From assembly GCA_903909215.1 (NCBI GenBank), contig CAIVUX010000038.1:1-64000 (forward strand): a stretch of 64,000 nt of DNA, read 5' to 3'. Below are positions 7,964 through 57,073 of this stretch, piece after piece. A program made the position numbers and the translations under genes. The DNA comes from an uncultured Ferrovum sp. (GTDB lineage Bacteria > Pseudomonadota > Gammaproteobacteria > Burkholderiales > Ferrovaceae). Positions within the stretch are counted from its first letter, which is position 1. Every line of letters starts with the position of its first letter. The notes beneath the pieces were generated by a model. That model was not told where the DNA came from. It saw only the letters and a list, made by a program, of their open reading frames with translations, and did no database searches.

Positions 7964-10341
7964 GATGCCCCCTCCAAACTCACCACACCATTGGCGTCAT
8001 TCAATTGTGCTGTAAGAGGATGGCCCACCGGCACACGGGCGCTGCCATCGGGCACGGCATCATTCACGCGCAGCACGAGGTGGGCCACGCCCTGCCCTTG
8101 GCGCACGCGCACATTCTGACCACATTTCAGATTCAGTCGTGAGGCCAGCGCTGAATTGATTTGCACTTCCACGGTGCTACCCAGTCGACTGGCTTGCAAG
8201 GAGGGTGAACGGCGCACCAGAGCATCGGTTTGATACACCGGTACCTCACCAATGCGCTCGATTGTGCCTAGGGAGGCACGCACTTTTAATGCGGGTGCTG
8301 CCGCTAATTCATTACCCAAACTGTTTTTAGTTAAGGCTTTCAGATCGTGGCTTAACTCCGCGCGTATATCGTCCACGGACTCAAAATCGTAGCCTTGTAG
8401 TTCTAATAAATTGCCCAGCACACGCAGCACTTTCCAGGCCGGACGGGCTTGACCTTGAGGTGCCACTGCCCCTTTAAAAGATTGCACACGCCCCTCCATA
8501 CTAATGAAGGTGCCCGCGGTTTCTGTGAAGGGGGCAACGGGCAAAATAACAGAAGCCCAATTTGGGGTCTGACCCCTAAAGGCGGAAAGGGCCACCACAA
8601 AATCGGCACCCTTTAATGCCGCCAGTGCTGCAGCAGGGTTGGCACAATCCAGTTCAGGTTCTAGGCCCATCACCAAATATGCTTTGCGTGGGCTACTTAA
8701 CATGGCTTGCGCATCAAGGCCCGGTGCGTTGTGGGTTCCCAGTGGCCCGCGGTGCGGCACAGCACCCGCCAACACAGCGCCTACACTGTTGGCGGCTTCG
8801 CCCAACACACCAAAGGGGGCCTTAAGGATTCGCGCCAACTCAACAGTGACGGCGTAGAGCGTGCCGTAGGCCTCGTGGTGTTGCGCCAAGCAGCCCAAGA
8901 ATAAGGCGCATGAAGAATTATTGACCAAGCTTTCAGCAATGCCTTGCGCCACAGCGCTGGGTGCATGGCTCATGAGGGGTTGCAGTGCTGCGCTTACGGT
9001 AACGTTTTGCAGCGCAGCCACGGCTTGCAATACTTCCGCCAACAGTCCGGGCAATTGGCTGGGGGTGCCCACCAATTGATGGGCCACGGGCATGGCCAAG
9101 TCATCCACGAAGGGATTAATTAAATTAATCTGCGCACCATTGCGTACGGCTTCGCGCAAGCGTACCGCCAGCAAAGGTTGTTCAGCGCGTAAACTGCTGC
9201 CGATAATGAGACAAGATTTTAATTCAGGCCACTGCGCCACAGGCAGACCCAACCAAGGGATATTGGTTTGCACAGCGTCTAATGAAAAATCGCTTTGGCG
9301 CACGCGGTGATCAATATGGTGCGAGCCTAAGTCACGCAGCAATTTCTGCGCTAAGTACAATTCTTCTAAGGTTGAATTGGGGCTAACCAAGGCGCCTAAG
9401 GCATCCGCGCCCTGCACGTCTTTAATTTTGTTGAAAGCGTCCGCCACAATTTGCAAGGCTTCCACCCAAGTGGCTTCCACCCACTGGCCGTTTTCTTTAA
9501 TCAGGGGTGTGGTGAGGCGGTCCGCGCTGTTCAACCCTTCGTAGGAGAAGCGATCACGATCAGACAGCCAGCACTCGTTCACATCATCGTTATTGTTGGG
9601 CAACACACGCATCACTTTGGTATTTTGTTTTACCTGCACCACCACATTGCTGCCCAAGCCGTCATGGGCGCCAATGCTGTCATGTTGGGTGAGCTCCCAA
9701 GAGCGCGCGCTGTAGCGGAATGGCTTGCTGGTGAGTGCGCCCACGGGGCATAAGTCGATGGCGTTGCCGGAAATTTCGGAATCTACCGTTTGGTCCACAA
9801 AGGCCAGAATTTCAGAATGCTCGCCACGTCCGCCCACGCCCAATTCCATAATGCCGGCAATCTCTTGGCCAAAGCGTACGCAGCGCGTGCACAAAATACA
9901 ACGCGTCATGTCGGTGGCGATGAGCGGGCCTAAATCTTTGTTGGCCACCACGCGCTTCTCTTCTTTAAAGCGCGAGGCGCCCCCGCCATAGCCCACGCTC
10001 ATGTCTTGCAACTTACACTCACCGCCTTGATCGCAGATGGGGCAATCCAGCGGGTGGTTCACCAGTAAAAACTCCATCACCGCTTTCTGAGCATTCACCG
10101 CGTACTCAGAATGGGTGGACACCTTCATGCCTTCCGCGGCGGGTGTGGCGCAGGCCGGTAAAGGCTTCGGTGCTTTTTCCACTTGCACCAAGCACATGCG
10201 GCAATTGGCTGCGATAGAAAGCTTGCGGTGATAACAGAAGTGCGGAATTTTAATACCCAGCTGACGGGCCGCATCCATAACGGTGCGCCCACTCTCCACC
10301 TGGGTGGTTTGTCCATCCACTTCAATGTTTAACAGAGCCAT
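7960..10341 (-). CDS. nuoG: NADH-quinone oxidoreductase subunit G
   Basis: A 793-residue peripheral-arm subunit with an N-terminal ferredoxin domain ([2Fe-2S], [15 protein letters not shown]), a His-Cys [4Fe-4S] motif ([14 protein letters not shown]), a further [4Fe-4S] site ([12 protein letters not shown]) and a molybdopterin-oxidoreductase-like C-terminal domain. It carries electrons from NuoF/NuoE to NuoI. Near residues 588-595 (FRGQTPNW) a copy of the GGGGTC(A/T)GACCCC palindrome is translated in frame, at a poorly conserved spot just before [14 protein letters not shown]. It overlaps nuoH and lies 3 bp from nuoF. Confidence 0.97.
8564..8576. repeat. Single GGGGTCTGACCCC palindrome inside nuoG
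   Basis: An exact copy of the 13-bp palindrome within the nuoG reading frame, read on the minus strand as part of AGG GGT CAG ACC CCA (RGQTP). The flanks resemble those of the intergenic copies (CCAAATT on the minus strand). The frame used avoids the TGA that one of the six frames would contain. Confidence 0.85.
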
Positions 10342-30178: not shown

Positions 30179-30208
30179 GGGGTCAGACCCCCCCAGGGGT
30201 CTGACCCC
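30179..30208. repeat. Palindrome pair between ftsH and folP
   Basis: GGGGTCAGACCCC and GGGGTCTGACCCC spaced by CCCA, giving a 13-bp stem with a four-base loop. It lies in the 57-bp gap between two genes on the same strand (ftsH upstream of folP), so here it sits inside a presumed operon, where it could reduce read-through or stabilise the ftsH message. Confidence 0.9.
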
Positions 30209-33619: not shown

Positions 33620-36600
33620 ACTGGGGCTCCCGCCTGATCAATTTGCTTATGTAAACTTTGTAAATCGTAAATACCCAGACTTTTGCTTTTGGTCAGCTGC
33701 ATGCCCAAACAGGCGGCGCGAGCACCGGCTAAGGTGGTGTAGTACGTCACCCGCCCTTGCAAGGCAGCGTTACGAATGGACCAAGAATCTTGCACTGCAC
33801 GCGGCAGGTCTTCCACAGTGTTGATGATGAGGCTAATCTCGCCATTCTTCACCATGTCTACAATATGAGGACGGCCTTCAGCTACTTTATTCACGGGTGT
33901 GACTTTAAGGCCCGCCTCAAGCAACGCCGCGCAAGTACCCCGTGTAGCCACCAAAGCGAATCCCAACTCGCACAGATTACGGCCAATTTCAACCACGCGC
34001 AATTTATCGGCATTTTTTACGCTAATAAATGCTTTTCCGCCAGTGGGCAGCTTTACGCTGGCCGCTAATTGCGACTTCACAAAGGCTTCGGCAAAGGTGC
34101 TGCCCACTCCCATTACTTCGCCGGTGGACTTCATCTCAGGACCCAAAATGGTGTCCACGCCAGGGAATTTAATAAAGGGAAAAACCGCTTCTTTCACAGA
34201 GAAATGAGGTGGAATAATTTCGTGCAGCACGCCCTGCGACTTCAGGCTTTGGCCCACCATACAGCGCGCCGCCACCTTGGCCAGTTGTCGCCCAGTGGCT
34301 TTGGCCACATAGGGCACCGTGCGTGATGCCCGTGGATTAACTTCCAACACGTAAACTGTGTCCCCTTGAATGGCAAACTGCACATTCATAAGCCCCACCA
34401 CGCCCAACTCTTTGGCCATGGCCACGGTTTGGCGGCGCAACTCATTTTGCAAGTCTGCAGATAGACTAAAGGGGGGCAAGGAACAGGCCGAATCACCCGA
34501 ATGCACACCCGCTTGTTCGATATGCTCCATGATGCCGCCAATCACCACTTGTTCGCCATCGCAAACCGCATCCACATCCACTTCAATGGCGTCGTTTAAA
34601 AAACGATCCAGCAAGATAGGCGCGTCGCGCGTCACGGCCACTCCGTTCATACCATCGGTATCAGAGACCACATCGCGTAAATATTTTTCTAAATCAGCGG
34701 GGGTATGCACAATTTGCATGGCCCGCCCGCCCAACACATAGCTTGGCCGCACCACCATGGGGTAGCCCAAGTCTGCGGCCAAGGCCAGCGTAGAGGCGCG
34801 ATCAAAAGCCGTGCGGTTTTCTGGTTGACGCAGTTTTAAATCATGCAGCATTTGTTGAAAACGCTTGCGGTCTTCTGCGCGATCAATACTGTCCGGCGGC
34901 GTGCCAATAATGGGCACTCCTGCAGCCTCTAGGCCACGCGCCAACTTCAGTGGGGTCTGACCCCCAAACTGCACAATCACACCCGTGGGTTTTTCGATGG
35001 CCACAATTTCCAGCACATCCTCTAGAGTTAGTGGCTCGAAGTACAAGCGGTCTGAAGTGTCGTAGTCGGTTGACACTGTTTCGGGATTGCAATTCACCAT
35101 GATGGTTTCATAACCATCTTGGCGCAAGGCTAGCGCCGCATGCACGCAACAGTAATCAAACTCGATGCCTTGCCCAATACGATTGGGTCCGCCGCCCAAG
35201 ACCATAATTTTTTTGTTGTTGGTGGGCGCGGCTTCGCACTCTTCTTCGTAAGTGGAGTATTGATAAGCGGTGTTGGTAGAAAATTCTGCAGCACAAGTAT
35301 CCACGCGCTTATACACCGGACGCACCTTCATGGCATGGCGATGGGCGCGAACTTGATGCTCATCAGTGGCCAATAGTTCTGCTATGCGCCGGTCCGAGAA
35401 ACCTTTGCGTTTTAAGGCGCGCATTTTGGGCTCGTTGAGCGCGCTCAACGCTTGGCCGCGCAACGCTTCCTCTTCTTGAACCAAATCTTCAATTTCGGCC
35501 AAGAACCACGGGTCGATGTGGGACAGGCGATAAATTTCATCGCGCGTCATACCCAATCGGAATGCGCCCGCCACATGCCATAAGCGATAAGGTCCAGGGT
35601 TGGCCAATTCCGCTTCTACTTCCGCGCGATCGCCCGGTAGCTCATCCAACCCATTGGCCCCCGTTTCTAATCCGCGCAGAGCTTTTTGCAAGGACTCCTG
35701 AAAGGAGCGGCCGATGGCCATCACTTCGCCCACAGATTTCATTTGTGTGGTGAGGCGGTCGTTGGCTTGCGGAAACTTTTCGAAAGCAAAACGCGGCACC
35801 TTGGTCACCACGTAATCAATGCTGGGCTCAAAAGAAGCCGGTGTGGCACCGCCGGTAATGTCGTTCTTCAATTCGTCTAAGGTGTAACCCACGGCCAACT
35901 TAGCCGCCACCTTGGCAATGGGGAAGCCCGTGGCCTTAGAGGCCAATGCCGAAGAGCGCGACACGCGTGGGTTCATTTCAATCACGATCATGCGCCCATC
36001 TACGGGGTTGATGGCAAACTGCACGTTAGAACCGCCGGTTTCCACACCAATTTCGCGCAGCACCGCCAAAGAGGCATCGCGCATGATTTGATATTCTTTA
36101 TCGGTGAGGGTTTGTGCGGGCGCCACGGTGATAGAGTCGCCTGTATGCACACCCATGGCGTCCAAGTTTTCGATGGAGCAAATGATGATGCAATTGTCTT
36201 TGCAATCGCGCACCACCTCCATTTCAAATTCTTTCCAACCAATCACAGACTCTTCCACCAACAATTCACGGGTGGGAGATGCATCCAAACCCCGTTCACA
36301 AATTTCTAAAAATTCTTGTTGATTATAGGCAATACCGCCGCCACTGCCGCCCATGGTGAAGGAGGGACGAATAATGGCAGGAAAACCCACCAGGGCTTGC
36401 ACCTGCATGGCTTCTTCAAGGCTATGGGCAATGTTGGAGCGTGGGGTAGAAAGCCCAATGCGCGTCATAGCCGCCTTAAACTTTTCGCGATCTTCTGCTT
36501 TGTCGATGGCTTCTTTGCGCGCACCGATCATTTCTACATTGTATTTATCCAACACGCCTTCGCGCGCCAAATCCAGCGCGCAATTTAATGCCGTCTGTCC

Positions 36601-39858: not shown

Positions 39859-39888
39859 GGGGTCAGACCCCACCCGGGGTCTGACCCC
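39859..39888. repeat. Palindrome pair between fur and sucD
   Basis: GGGGTCAGACCCC and GGGGTCTGACCCC spaced by ACCC, a 13-bp inverted repeat in the 45-bp gap between two convergent genes. It could serve as a bidirectional stop signal, though neither side has the T-run of a classical terminator. Confidence 0.9.
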
Positions 39889-42770: not shown

Positions 42771-44735
42771 TTGCAATCTGCAGCACCCATTTGTCGAGCG
42801 CTGGCGAGTCTGCTGCTGGCCGGCCTCCTACTGACAACCACACCAGCAACGGCCACTCCAGCCGATGATGCGCTGCTTGCTGCTCACGACTCGTGGGCTT
42901 TGCGCGACGTGGCAGGCGTTCAGCGCGGCATTAAAAACATGGGGTCAGACCCCTTAATCGACTATCCCGAGTATTGGTTGTTGGATTTGCGCTTAGCGCA
43001 ACCCGGCCCTCCCCCTAGCGCGGATGTAAAAGGCTTTTTGACACGCTACCCCAACAGCCCCTTATTGGAACCCTTGCGCATCACATGGCTGAAAGCCCTA
43101 GCACGCGCACAGGATTGGGATACCTTTGCAGCGCAAGTCACGCAAAATGCTTTAGAAGACACGGAGGTAGCCTGCGATCATTTTCAAAACAGGCTGCTCA
43201 AGCAAGACAGCTCCGTGGCGCGCGATGTGCGCGTGTTGTGGTTTTCCAATAAAATTTTGCCCGACAGTTGTGTGACCGTATTTCACCAATTGGCCAGCAA
43301 CGGATCGCTGAGCAATGACGATGTTTGGGCCGCCCTGCGCCAAGCCTTAAGCGATGCCAATTTAAACTTAGCACATGTCATCATGGGGTTTTTGCCTAGC
43401 GCACAGGCACCTGGCGAACTGGATTTGTCTACCGCCTATAACCGTCCGCTGCGTTTCTTAGAAAGCTGGAAAATAACCGATGCCTCACCGGCCACACATG
43501 AACTGGCCTTGTTTGCTCTGGCGCAATATGCTGCCCATTCACCGGAACTGGCCATAGCGCAATTAAACCGTTTGGCGCCGCGCTTGAACGCCCACGAAAT
43601 ATCTTATGCTTGGTTACAGATTGCTTATCAGGGCGCCTTGGCCTTAAACCCCAAAGCCATTATTTGGTTTCGCAATGTAACCGACCCATTGACCAATGAT
43701 GTGATGCGCACTTGGCGCATTCGCGCAGCATTGCGCGCACAAAATTGGGATGAACTATTAAACGGCATATCACAATTGTCTGGCACAGAGGCGCGACAAC
43801 CGGTGTGGCGTTATTGGAAGGCGCGAGCCCTGAGCGCGTTAAATAAAGCCGATGAGGCGCAAGCCTTACTTGCCGAACTTGCACAAGAACCCGGTTTTTA
43901 TGGATTGCTGGCACTGGAGGATTTGGACGGGCAATTTCAGGCCCCTATCGCACCTCCAGCGGCACAAGCCGATGAAATGATGGCTGTGGCGCCCCGCTTT
44001 GAGCGCGCCTTTAGACTGCATCAATTGGGGCTTGCCACCGACGCGCAATTTGAATGGAAGGCGGCAGATCGCCCATTAAACAGCCGTGAACATCTGGCAG
44101 CAGCCACCTGGGCCGCACAAGTCCTGTGGATAGACCGCTCCATCTACAGTATTGAGCGCGCCGGCGATCAGCAAGATTACGCGTTGCGTTACCCCTTACC
44201 CTACCGCGACGAAATACACAATTGGGCCACGCAAAATCAATTGGATGAAGCGTGGGTGTACGGCTTAACACGACAAGAAAGCCATTTCTTTCCTGAAGCC
44301 CGTTCGCGCTCCGGCGCCTTGGGGTTGATGCAGCTGATGCCCGCTACCGCCCGCTGGATTGCACGACGCATTTCATTAAAAGGGTTTCAACCCGCCGCCG
44401 CCACGCGCATTGACGTAAACCTTCAGCTGGGTTCGGCCTATTTACGCTATCTGCTCAACGTCACAGGCAACCCCGTATTGGCAACGGCTGCTTACAATGC
44501 AGGCCCCCACCGGGTGCGTGGTTGGATGCTCGAAGCCCCGCTTGAAGCCGCCTTGTTTATTGAAACCATTCCGATCACAGAAACACGCAACTACGTGAAG
44601 CATGTGCTCTACAACAGCACGGTTTACAATCAACGCTTGGGATTGCCCGTCGTATCATTAAAACAACGGTTGGGCGCGCTTTCTGGTGCGAAACCTGCAC
44701 GTGACAAGGACATTGATCCGGTGGTTCAACCATGA
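42771..44735 (+). CDS. slt: Soluble lytic murein transglycosylase
   Basis: A 654-residue periplasmic enzyme that cleaves peptidoglycan to 1,6-anhydro products. A signal peptide is followed by a long helical superhelix and a C-terminal goose-lysozyme-like domain: the catalytic glutamate is in VYGLTRQESHF, then SGALGLMQLMPATARWIA and AAYNAGPHRVRGW. Start is a TTG eight bases after AAGGA. A palindrome copy is read as MGSDP near residues 57-61. Overlaps cca by 4 bp. Confidence 0.95.
   Translation: MQSAAPICRALASLLLAGLLLTTTPATATPADDALLAAHDSWALRDVAGVQRGIKNMGSDPLIDYPEYWLLDLRLAQPGPPPSADVKGFLTRYPNSPLLEPLRITWLKALARAQDWDTFAAQVTQNALEDTEVACDHFQNRLLKQDSSVARDVRVLWFSNKILPDSCVTVFHQLASNGSLSNDDVWAALRQALSDANLNLAHVIMGFLPSAQAPGELDLSTAYNRPLRFLESWKITDASPATHELALFALAQYAAHSPELAIAQLNRLAPRLNAHEISYAWLQIAYQGALALNPKAIIWFRNVTDPLTNDVMRTWRIRAALRAQNWDELLNGISQLSGTEARQPVWRYWKARALSALNKADEAQALLAELAQEPGFYGLLALEDLDGQFQAPIAPPAAQADEMMAVAPRFERAFRLHQLGLATDAQFEWKAADRPLNSREHLAAATWAAQVLWIDRSIYSIERAGDQQDYALRYPLPYRDEIHNWATQNQLDEAWVYGLTRQESHFFPEARSRSGALGLMQLMPATARWIARRISLKGFQPAAATRIDVNLQLGSAYLRYLLNVTGNPVLATAAYNAGPHRVRGWMLEAPLEAALFIETIPITETRNYVKHVLYNSTVYNQRLGLPVVSLKQRLGALSGAKPARDKDIDPVVQP
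42941..42953. repeat. Single GGGGTCAGACCCC palindrome inside slt
   Basis: An exact 13-mer in the slt reading frame (ATG GGG TCA GAC CCC, MGSDP) near the start of the mature protein, in a loop-like stretch before DYPEYWLLDLRL. Confidence 0.8.
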
Positions 44736-52442: not shown

Positions 52443-53330
52443 ATGCGGCTTAGCTTTACCAAAATGCAGGGTCTGGGCAATGACTTCGTGGTGTTAGAAG
52501 GGTTGGCCGCGCCCGTAACGCTGAGCGCAGCGCAAATGCGTTGGCTGGCACACCGCCAATTGGGCGTGGGCTGCGATCAAATACTGATTGTGGAACCCGC
52601 GCAAGATGCGGCCAACCACTTTCGTTATCGCATCTTTAATGCCGATGGTGGTGAAGTGGAGAACTGCGGCAATGGAGCGCGTTGTTTCGCGCGCTATGTC
52701 ACCGAACGGGGCCTTAATAGGGGTCAGACCCCGAATCGGGGTCTGACCCCTATTCCTATTCGGGTGGAAACCTTGGGTGGGGTAATGACCTTAACCCTCA
52801 CAGAGGATCACCAAGTCATCGTAAATATGGGCGCACCGATATTTGAGCCCGCACGCATCCCTTTCATCGCAACCGCTCAAGCGCTGACCTATTCTTTGGA
52901 CGTGGCGGGGCAATTGCATGAATTTAGTGTGCTCTCCATGGGTAACCCCCATGCCGTACAAGTGGTGCTGTCTGTCAACACCGCACCCGTAGCAACAGAA
53001 GGACCTCTCATTGAAAACCATAAGGCCTTCCCACAACGCGTCAACGCAGGCTTTATGGAAATAGTGGACCGCACCCATATCAGGTTGCGCGTTTTTGAGC
53101 GCGGCGCCGGCGAAACCCTGGCTTGCGGCACCGGTGCTTGTGCTGCTGTGGTAGCCGGCATTACCCGCGGTCTGCTGGATGCGCAGGTTACTGTGGCCAC
53201 GCGCGGCGGCACCTTGACCATTGAATGGGCGGGGACCCATCAACCGGTGTTGATGACAGGTCCCGCTGAATTTGTATTTACCGGACAGATTGATCTACCC
53301 GAATTTCCTCAGGAGGCAACATGTTTTTAA
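52443..53330 (+). CDS. dapF: Diaminopimelate epimerase
   Basis: A 295-residue cofactor-free epimerase making meso-diaminopimelate for lysine and peptidoglycan. The two catalytic cysteines are in [13 protein letters not shown] (about residue 75) and LACGTGACA. It is about 20 residues longer than E. coli DapF, largely because a 39-bp palindrome pair is translated in frame as residues 92-104 (NRGQTP then NRGLTPI), between YVTERGL and PIRVETLGG. The DUF484 gene begins within its last 10 bases. Confidence 0.96.
52716..52754. repeat. In-frame palindrome pair inside dapF
   Basis: AATAGGGGTCAGACCCC, spacer GAATC, then the exact inverted complement ending CCCCTATT: a 39-bp perfect inverted repeat apart from the spacer. 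It equals exactly 13 codons and contains no stop in this frame, so it extends the protein without breaking it. Confidence 0.93.
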
Positions 53331-54893: not shown

Positions 54894-57073
54894 AACAGGC
54901 GGCTCAACCCCACCATGATCGTGCGACGCTGTCCATATTGTGGGGCCCCCACTCCGATGCCGGTGCCGTCTCTTAGCTCATAGCTGCGATCAAGCGCATT
55001 AATTAATGTAAGCCGTCCTTCTAAAGTGCCAAAACTATCGGAGCGCACGGTGTGCATCGCCGCCAAATTAAGAGTGGCGTAAGCAGGCAACGTGTTCATG
55101 TTGGCAAATCCGCTGCGCAGCCCACTGCCAAAAACACCATCGGCACTAAAATTAGCCCAGTCGGCGTGATAGGTTACGCTGCCAGAGAGCGTATAGCGCT
55201 GATCGTGATCCAGATAAATCCAATGGTTGCTGATGTACGCCAGCTCCGTCGCTGAAAAATTAAACTGTCCGGTTTCAATGTTCTTGCCCTGCGCTCGACC
55301 GACGGCTATGTTGAGCGACTCACTCCAACGACCGTCATGATACGAACCCGTCGCCTCTACCCCATACGCGCGACCTTGCTGATAATTAAATGATGAAAAA
55401 ATCAGCGCATTGCCAAACTGCCCTTGATCTTGCAAGTGGCGCACCTGACGGTAATAGGTATCCACGTCCAACGTCAGATGGTCATTCACTTGATGCGAGA
55501 CACCAAAATCGAAATAGTCCGAACGCTCTGCCTTCACAGAAGTGTCGGCATTACTCGGTGTGGTATTGGTGGTATTGGCGAATGCCGTCACAGTGTTGCT
55601 GTTAATGAGTTCTGCTGGAGGCGGTGTAAAATATTCTGCAAATCCTGCGTGTAAGCGCGTGCGCTCTGTGGCATCCCACACCAAGGCCAAACGTGGGCTG
55701 ATTTGATGTTCGTCGGTGAGCACATTGCTTTGGTCAAAACGCACACCATAATTCATGGTGAGGTGCGGCACTAATGTCCACTCGTCTTGCAGCGAGATGC
55801 CCCAGAAGTGGCCCACACCGGCACTGTTGTCCGTGATGGCGGTGGGGGCCATGCTGGCGATGTTGCCGATGAGTTGACTGCCGCCGATGCACGCTGAAGA
55901 GGCGCCCGTGCAATACACTTGTGACGCATTGCTGGTCAGGTAACGCTCTCGTTGCACCATGAACCCTGTGCGCAACACATGATCGTCCATCCAATGCACG
56001 CCCACATCTGTTTGCACGCCCTCTGCTTCATTGCGGCGCGTGATATCACTACTGGCTCCGGTATAGAACAAGTCACCTAAGTTTGGGTCGGGACTGTAAT
56101 GCACATCTGTTATGCGATGATAAAAAGAGGTTTGATAGTCCACCAAAGCGTTGTCGTGCGATTGAAAGCTGGCCACTTCAAATTGATTGCGCTCTGTTTG
56201 GTTGGCGTTAAGCATTTGTGAAACGGGTGTGGGTGTGAGCGTTGAACCGTACTGCGCCACCAGTGCTGGTCGATCAGGAATTTGAAAAGCGTTTTCAGAA
56301 TGCCCAAAGGTTAGACTGATGCGCTGCTGAGGGTTAAGGTCGTAGGCCAAGAAGGCGAAGCCTTTGCCTTGCACACTGCGATCATGCAGGGCGTTTAACG
56401 CCGGGGTTGGGTTTTCAATACCCAATTCGGAGGTCAACCATGAGCCGGCCAAGTTGTAACTGAAAGCCCCTACAGAGCCATTTAGCACAGTGCCCATTTC
56501 GCCGTAGTTGCGACTGCCCCCGGTTACTGAAAACTCGCCGCCGGGTTCCGCGCCTGGTCCGCGCGTATGAATGTCTACTACCCCTGCAGTACGAAAACCA
56601 TATTGCGCAGGCAGGGCGCCTGTGATGACATTAATTTGATCAGCAAAGCGCGTATCAATCACTTGGCCAAAGCCGCTTATGGCCTCAGGAATAATCACGC
56701 CATTCACGCGATATTGCAAATTTCCGTGATCGCCGCGCACATGCACCTGACCAAAACCATCTTGCACAATGCCGGGCGCTTGCAGCAGCACTTGGTTGAG
56801 TGGCGTGGCGTTGCCTTGCGGTAAGTTGGCGATATCTGCATCGGAGAATTGATATTGCGAGGTGCCGGCATCTGACGAGAGTGCGTTGCGCGCGTTATCC
56901 AGTCGTCGAGAAATAACCGTGATGGTTCTTGCCTTCGCTACCGCATCCTCCCCCAAGCTGGGGTCTGACCCCGAATTGGGGTCAGACCCCAAAACAGGGG
57001 GCGCCCCAAAGGTGGTAACGCTAACCAAGGCCAACGCCGAGGCGCCTGCCTTCCACTTTTTTAACAATGACAT
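54890..57073 (-). CDS. TonB-dependent outer membrane receptor
   Basis: A 727-residue outer-membrane receptor: signal peptide (residues 1 to about 24), plug domain (VLLQAPGIVQDGFGQVHVRG, INVITGALPAQYG) and a 22-strand-type barrel ending in phenylalanine (GLSRLF). Start at 57073 (MSLLKKW) behind GGGAG. Substrate unknown; the neighbouring small His/Cys protein hints at a metal. A palindrome pair is translated near residues 29-40 (GSDP, SGSDPS), between the signal peptide and the plug. Confidence 0.92.
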   Translation of the reverse strand: MSLLKKWKAGASALALVSVTTFGAPPVLGSDPNSGSDPSLGEDAVAKARTITVISRRLDNARNALSSDAGTSQYQFSDADIANLPQGNATPLNQVLLQAPGIVQDGFGQVHVRGDHGNLQYRVNGVIIPEAISGFGQVIDTRFADQINVITGALPAQYGFRTAGVVDIHTRGPGAEPGGEFSVTGGSRNYGEMGTVLNGSVGAFSYNLAGSWLTSELGIENPTPALNALHDRSVQGKGFAFLAYDLNPQQRISLTFGHSENAFQIPDRPALVAQYGSTLTPTPVSQMLNANQTERNQFEVASFQSHDNALVDYQTSFYHRITDVHYSPDPNLGDLFYTGASSDITRRNEAEGVQTDVGVHWMDDHVLRTGFMVQRERYLTSNASQVYCTGASSACIGGSQLIGNIASMAPTAITDNSAGVGHFWGISLQDEWTLVPHLTMNYGVRFDQSNVLTDEHQISPRLALVWDATERTRLHAGFAEYFTPPPAELINSNTVTAFANTTNTTPSNADTSVKAERSDYFDFGVSHQVNDHLTLDVDTYYRQVRHLQDQGQFGNALIFSSFNYQQGRAYGVEATGSYHDGRWSESLNIAVGRAQGKNIETGQFNFSATELAYISNHWIYLDHDQRYTLSGSVTYHADWANFSADGVFGSGLRSGFANMNTLPAYATLNLAAMHTVRSDSFGTLEGRLTLINALDRSYELRDGTGIGVGAPQYGQRRTIMVGLSRLF
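56960..56990. repeat. In-frame palindrome pair in the TonB receptor gene
   Basis: GGGGTCTGACCCC, spacer GAATT, GGGGTCAGACCCC, read through in frame in the linker just after the signal peptide. Spacer length is five, as in dapF, whereas intergenic pairs have four. Confidence 0.92.

Follow-up and report, generated by a model that had tools for sequence, protein, structure and literature searches.

A 39-bp palindrome in dapF of an uncultured Ferrovum as a possible local pair of a genome-wide 13-bp word

Is the palindrome that is translated as part of dapF in an uncultured Ferrovum sp. a repeat element that entered the gene, or did it arise there? We examined the locus in a window of 64,000 nucleotides (contig CAIVUX010000038.1 of assembly GCA_903909215.1, positions 1 to 64,000 of the forward strand), and the features discussed are collected in Table 1. 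The ORF list and the repeat search agreed with the first-pass annotation that a 39-bp inverted repeat is read in frame within the gene; each of its arms measures 19 nt, and a single nucleotide separates them. Its two 13-bp units have a spacing of 18 bp, and as an RNA hairpin the palindrome has a folding energy of -38.2 kcal/mol (z -6.1). Matches to the unit at up to two mismatches numbered 18 in the window, far above the 1.07 expected by chance. A direct repeat, CCTATT, was observed at the right end of the palindrome (52749-52760). The DapF motifs ENCGNG and ACGTGAC, whose cysteines we take to be catalytic, are intact, again as the annotation had held, and the conserved residues are present in the alignment; judged by its sequence, the product looks functional outside the palindrome. 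A structure model, which had been proposed as a check, was obtained with AlphaFold2 (pLDDT 91.3), and its fold matches solved DapF structures. Residues 89-105 are without helix or strand in this model and lie between a helix (76-88) and a strand (106-110), with a mean pLDDT of 63 for residues 91-100. The palindrome is thus predicted to sit in an unstructured loop.

Table 1. Positions of dapF, its palindrome and other copies of the 13-bp unit in the window.
Feature	Position	Strand	Supporting evidence
Palindrome-bearing gene dapF (295 aa; diaminopimelate epimerase)	52443..53330	+	ORF list; Pfam DAP_epimerase 3e-60; best PDB matches DapF, 4.4e-86
39-bp perfect palindrome: two 13-bp units, 5-nt spacer GAATC, 4-nt flanks; codons 92-104	52716..52754	.	
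Left unit GGGGTCAGACCCC, translated RGQTP; extra copy under the preferred parse	52720..52732	+	
Right unit GGGGTCTGACCCC, translated RGLTP, over relatives' native R-G-L-T codons	52738..52750	+	
18-spaced pair in N-terminal part of TonB-dependent receptor (LGSDPNSGSDP), just after signal-peptide-like N-terminus	56960..56990	.	
Single in carB on native GGQTP, no indel	34952..34964	-	same residues in solved CarB chain 1bxr
Single in nuoG (FRGQT-PN), net gain none	8564..8576	-	
Single in lytic transglycosylase ORF (MGSDP)	42941..42953	+	
17-spaced hairpin pair, outside ORFs >150 aa	27964..27993	.	
17-spaced hairpin pair; script-counted as lying in an ORF (158-167 aa) that has no other support	30179..30208	.	
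17-spaced hairpin pair without ORF across	39859..39888	.	
17-spaced pair, A-centred in both units, outside ORFs >150 aa	47991..48020	.	

The first-pass annotation had read the palindrome as a discrete 39-bp element that adds exactly 13 codons. Comparison with relatives contradicted both statements. DapF matches were obtained in 57 other genomes, of which 33 were aligned, and in all 33 the loop was shorter by 9 residues, not 13; solved DapF structures in the PDB showed the same shortfall of 9. In the DNA, 27 bp are missing in 8 relatives, with the right unit aligned to their native Arg-Gly-Leu-Thr codons. The empty allele that had been suggested as a check is therefore not short by exactly 39 bp. 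In 7 of the 8 relatives the right-unit site is the best match to the 13-mer in the stretch, at 2-4 mismatches; because the shuffle probabilities for single relatives range from 0.01 to 0.39, the placement on native codons is suggestive, short of proof. The parse is ambiguous, as the RGLN at the left could alternatively correspond to the native RGLT. The repeat search listed no direct repeat of at least 6 bp on both sides of the palindrome. From the gain of 9 residues, the alignment of the right unit to native codons and the absence of a two-sided repeat, we rejected a clean 39-bp insertion with target duplication, and with a net +9 residues instead of 13 the palindrome is not a discrete RPE-like element inserted in frame. 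In genus g3 (G002, G009; L027, L031), DapF carries a different extended loop at about residue 150, which has no relation to the palindrome.

The 13-mer GGGGTC(A/T)GACCCC is strongly over-represented genome-wide as a short exact word. We counted 329 exact copies in the 1.53-Mb genome, about 1 per 4.7 kb, vs. 0 for the reversed control, and 392 copies (control 4) at up to one mismatch, an increase of 19%. A further count, apart from these genome-wide figures, gave 21 near-matches at one mismatch (1.7 in controls) and 10 at two (16.5 in controls). A gradient of near-match enrichment, as reported for DUES, was not observed, since two-mismatch copies did not rise above controls. Within a collection of open-access papers, a search by exact sequence for GGGGTCAGACCCC gave no match, and searches with the 11-bp core in either form returned 16 papers, none of which, by title, concerns bacterial genome repeats. 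The arrangement of copies was analyzed in a sample of 461,374 bp, composed of the window and 20 further stretches of the same genome. The four commonest 10-mers of the sample are pieces of the 13-mer. Because the stretches were picked for holding matches, in many cases to the dapF pair, 18-spaced pairs may be over-represented in them. The sample contained 89 arrays, of which 31 had one unit, 45 two, 10 three and 3 four, with spacings mainly of 17 (46) and 18 (16) bp. Genes are represented here by ORFs, not curated. Under a strict rule an array was called internal within an ORF of at least 150 aa leaving 30 aa on each side; a looser ORF map was also used. Pfam was run on 40 of the 42 listed ORFs, with no match for L153:12195 and L161:10722. 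In a few cases (e.g., L155:14071, L156:2524, L163:17868) the array falls within an N-terminal extension that is possibly non-coding.

Single units were internal to ORFs in 18 of 31 cases (58%) under the strict rule vs. 76% of random positions, and 20 of 31 lay in ORFs under the looser map. This depletion is mild, far weaker than that of the 17-spaced doubles described below. Nine of the 18 internal singles, chosen by the homologues at hand, were compared with homologous proteins, and none showed a net gain. The single in aldehyde dehydrogenase lies on a native GGSDP, as that in carB does on its own motif (Table 1). Those in peptide deformylase (def), NadC, RfbA, PheT, MnmC (site B), NuoG and a FadB-like protein involve substitutions only, with no length added. 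For two of these the homologues are distant: NuoG is shorter by 1 residue vs. one homologue (37-43% identity), and the FadB-like protein differs by 0 vs. Azoarcus and -3 vs. Comamonas (52-56% identity). All nine are thus consistent with evolution in place by substitution inside genes, and single units seem, on these alignments, to arise base by base within coding sequence already present, not by insertion. Units in LspA, dUTPase and homoserine dehydrogenase, outside this count, also read as in place if we go by what we take to be the family motifs.

Results were different for sites with several units. Residues were gained in all six tested of the 25 internal multi-unit sites, likewise chosen by available homologues: +9 in dapF, +5 in a LeuB/tartrate-dehydrogenase-like gene, +6 in MnmE, +11 in Fmt (three units), and +12 at site A and +15 at site C of MnmC relative to the nearest relatives. 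These sites are variable loops, so that each figure carries error. Since the gains vary (5, 6, 9, 11, 12, 15 aa), no fixed element length was inserted. The mnmC gene (L161:4357-6309) combines three separate arrays, a 17-spaced pair, the in-place single and an 18-spaced pair. The earlier statement that the family inserts into coding sequence is thus too simple: the tested multi-unit sites gained residues, and the nine singles show no net insertion.

The two spacings are distributed differently. A spacing of 18 bp corresponds to six codons, and 13 of 14 18-spaced doubles were internal vs. 5 of 27 17-spaced doubles (strict rule, p=5.7e-6); under the looser map the counts in ORFs were 14/14 and 9/27. 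The 18 extragenic 17-spaced doubles lay between convergent (11), same-direction (5) and divergent (2) genes, while the background gaps comprised 20 convergent, 73 same-direction and 45 divergent (n=138). The units followed an A-then-T order in 23 of the 27 17-spaced pairs, and three such pairs, when folded, gave -30.6 to -37.5 kcal/mol. The fixed spacing and A-then-T order show that building or copying of hairpins also contributes to the pairs.

This behavior could be explained by a mobile hairpin of the REP/REPIN type, in which a RAYT-like transposase that has been lost, or that operates from another place, copies the 17- or 18-spaced pair and inserts it anywhere; in-gene survivors would be those that keep the frame, and singles would be decayed halves. 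This explanation would account for the constant spacing and order of the hairpin pairs, for the net gains at every tested multi-unit site and for the partition of the two spacings between ORFs and gaps, and intragenic REPs and RPEs are on record in the cited part of PMC3733652. Yet we obtained 0 matches to RAYT (Y1_Tnp) in the own genome with a control positive in 5 of 14 genomes, and a RAYT encoded in the own genome was accordingly rejected. The 11-bp core was found near a relative's Y1_Tnp at L149 alone among 20 loci. By eye, no constant GTAG/CGTC tag was seen beside the listed 13-mer copies. The mobile hairpin is also at odds with the nine singles without net gain, two of them on native conserved motifs, with gains that do not share one element length, and with the alignment of the dapF right unit to native codons. 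The mainly extragenic position of REPs/REPINs was not found for singles and 18-spaced pairs, which lie largely in ORFs, the 17-spaced pairs being mostly outside. Of the earlier idea that a REP-like unit became protein, the part that holds is that a large repeat family added residues to dapF; the REP-like status is contradicted by the missing RAYT and by the in-gene position of singles and 18-spaced pairs. We therefore regard the mobile hairpin as unlikely, and a sequence-specific drive with REP-like hairpin pairs fits better than an inserting REP.

The word also occurs in other genomes, in part in altered form. A one-letter variant, GGGGACAGACCCC, had 0 copies in the own genome and 78 (G006), 60 (G023), 3, 2 and 2 copies in genus g7, so that it is abundant in two of the five g7 genomes only (G006 and G023, e.g., L233, L236). 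Genus g8 had 0-1 copies, near control, and a genome of another family (G053) had 17. In G006 and G023, where the main form is not palindromic, the variant often occurs as inverted pairs with a spacing of 18. Relative to the palindromic 13-mer, GGGGACAGACCCC constitutes a dialect in a related taxon. G012, also of genus g7, has 28 near-matches of the palindrome, and another form may therefore dominate there. We inspected 18 neighboring-genus loci for ORFs, of which some contained a clear gene; variant pairs were seen in nadD-like and murE-like genes, and in the one gene aligned, acetohydroxyacid synthase of G027 (L229), a single GGGGACAGACCCC is in place. The 13-mer was present in 35 of 369 genomes of the class, with the own genome far ahead, followed by G166 (59) and G096 (48). 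In G043, of the same order, we counted 75 copies, some of them head-to-tail at a 13-bp spacing, spacer-free (L199, L200). G166 belongs to the same class and another order; its aconitase unit adds 1 residue vs. the Salinivibrio homologue, and a further unit-bearing gene presumably encodes homoserine dehydrogenase. Apart from its 59 exact 13-mers, this 2.0-Mb genome has a GGGGACAGACCCC pair (L207-L209). The paired unit was also present on two contigs of the IMG/VR viral collection (L245, L246), examined around the pair.

A second alternative is a signature comparable to HIP1, in which a protein that binds or modifies DNA (a methyltransferase, nucleoid or recombination factor) recognizes the palindrome, and selection on chromosome function, not uptake, enriches it. 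The motif is palindromic, genome-wide and in place within genes, its exact copies far exceed near-matches, as would be expected for a protein requiring the full site, and HIP1 itself offers a precedent (PMC4390886, cited in part). The non-palindromic main form in G006 and G023 and the resemblance of intergenic pairs to terminators are difficult to reconcile with such a site, and we consider it still more doubtful than the mobile hairpin. A third alternative, that selection at gene ends maintains the hairpins mainly for terminating transcription in both directions or for stabilizing RNA, with in-gene copies as by-products, is improbable: it agrees with the excess of 17-spaced pairs between convergent genes (11/18 vs. 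20/138 background gaps) and with their folding energies, but leaves the exact 13-mer, the singles in ORFs (20/31) and the 18-spaced pairs in ORFs (14/14) unexplained.

We tentatively favor a reading, a little short of probable, in which a sequence-specific drive lets a 13-bp motif accumulate in place across the genome and the dapF palindrome is one local pair of its units. The in-place singles on compatible native codons, the large excess of exact copies over near-matches and the one-letter change between genera point to a force favoring the exact word. Under this proposal base substitution on existing sequence would build the motif, which would accumulate in place because DNA carrying it exactly is favored (molecular drive). 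Biased DNA uptake with recombination, as for the DUS and USS of Neisseriaceae and Pasteurellaceae, is the best-known process of this kind, and by analogy could be what drives the motif, a role that is unproven. In dapF, native Arg-Gly-Leu-Thr codons at 2-4 mismatches from the motif would have become the right unit; a second, inverted unit would then have been added beside it, where the loop tolerates a change of length, perhaps through template switching or fold-back during copying, although the order of these events may have differed. The reading frame would have survived because both the 18-bp period of the units and the net gain of 27 bp are whole numbers of codons.

A candidate component of the uptake machinery, ComEC, was found in the genome (331 bits, cut-off 190). 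PilQ gave no match above its cut-off, the PilQ model scoring 167.8 bits vs. 284 on a GspD-like gene, and the secretins found resemble T2SS and Flp/Tad types. Despite ComEC, the lack of a PilQ match and of enrichment at two mismatches therefore leaves the class of process better supported than the agent. The genome holds Flp/Tad pilus genes (CpaB, secretin) and a T2SS cluster (L243, L153); in the latter, units are located in gspD-, gspM- and gspH-like genes.

Several observations weigh against a sequence-specific drive. The depletion of singles from ORFs is also expected of an inserting element, and the fixed arrangement in 17-spaced pairs, A first and T second in 23/27, resembles copying of a hairpin unit. 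The motif of the own genome is palindromic, its density is far under published DUS counts and PilQ was not found. The variant is abundant in just two of five g7 genomes, with 17 copies in another family (G053), and some comparisons rest on distant homologues (NuoG, FadB-like).

In its wider form the proposal is an unrecognized uptake-sequence-like drive beyond Neisseriaceae and Pasteurellaceae, acting through a 13-bp word that exists in dialects and forms a palindrome in one genus but not in the neighboring one. Such a drive would recode conserved enzymes in place and then turn some sites into hairpin pairs, making protein loops longer; the same word recurs in distant genomes of the same class (G166). 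We put this forward as a possibility, with less confidence than the reading of the dapF pair. If it is true, a DNA-level force altered NuoG, Def, PheT, RfbA and NadC by substitution in one genome, and the same force lengthened DapF, Fmt, MnmE and MnmC, with the neighboring genus as a natural comparison. Sequence-specific drive would then reach past the two families with established uptake words and would provide a test system for how uptake-like words begin, switch dialect and turn into hairpins. The idea that in-gene palindromes must be inserted elements would be corrected by the 13-mer.

Among known systems, the 13-mer resembles DUS and USS in being a single short exact word with dialects that is enriched across the genome, occurs within genes and in inverted pairs, and originates in place; it also includes the CTG core and shares GTCTGA with the Neisseria DUS. 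According to the cited part of PMC1939737, uptake sequences arise by point mutation, not insertion, about 10% are inverted repeats, and 65% of those in H. influenzae and 35% of those in N. gonorrhoeae are within ORFs. DUS dialects and their CTG core are described in the sections cited from PMC3630211, where all eight dialects keep an A two places after CTG, which the 13-mer does not have, and where allowing one mismatch adds 21% for kingDUS, close to the 19% obtained here. Further differences from DUS are the length of 13 bp, the palindromic form in the own genome (DUES are said to be non-palindromic), hundreds instead of thousands of copies, the lack of a PilQ match, pairs that lengthen proteins and the absence of the mismatch gradient past one that is reported for DUES.

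HIP1 (GCGATCGC, cyanobacteria) is likewise palindromic and highly iterated, and its copies occur inside genes. The 13-mer is another and longer sequence, so it is not GCGATCGC; it forms spaced hairpin pairs, and its g7 form is not palindromic. With REPs and REPINs it has in common palindromic units in inverted pairs, many of them extragenic and at gene ends, and differs in the own genome without a RAYT match, the singles in place in genes and the variable net gains. As PMC3733652 records REPs inside genes and Rickettsia RPEs, palindromes in proteins are not new. Like RPEs and intragenic GTAG/CGTC REPs, the 13-mer is palindromic DNA incorporated into proteins, conserved ones included. Here, however, a 13-bp word lies partly on native codons in place of a whole inserted element, and the in-gene pairs have an 18-bp period. 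What sets the 13-mer apart from intragenic REPs and RPEs is the in-place origin and the dialect.
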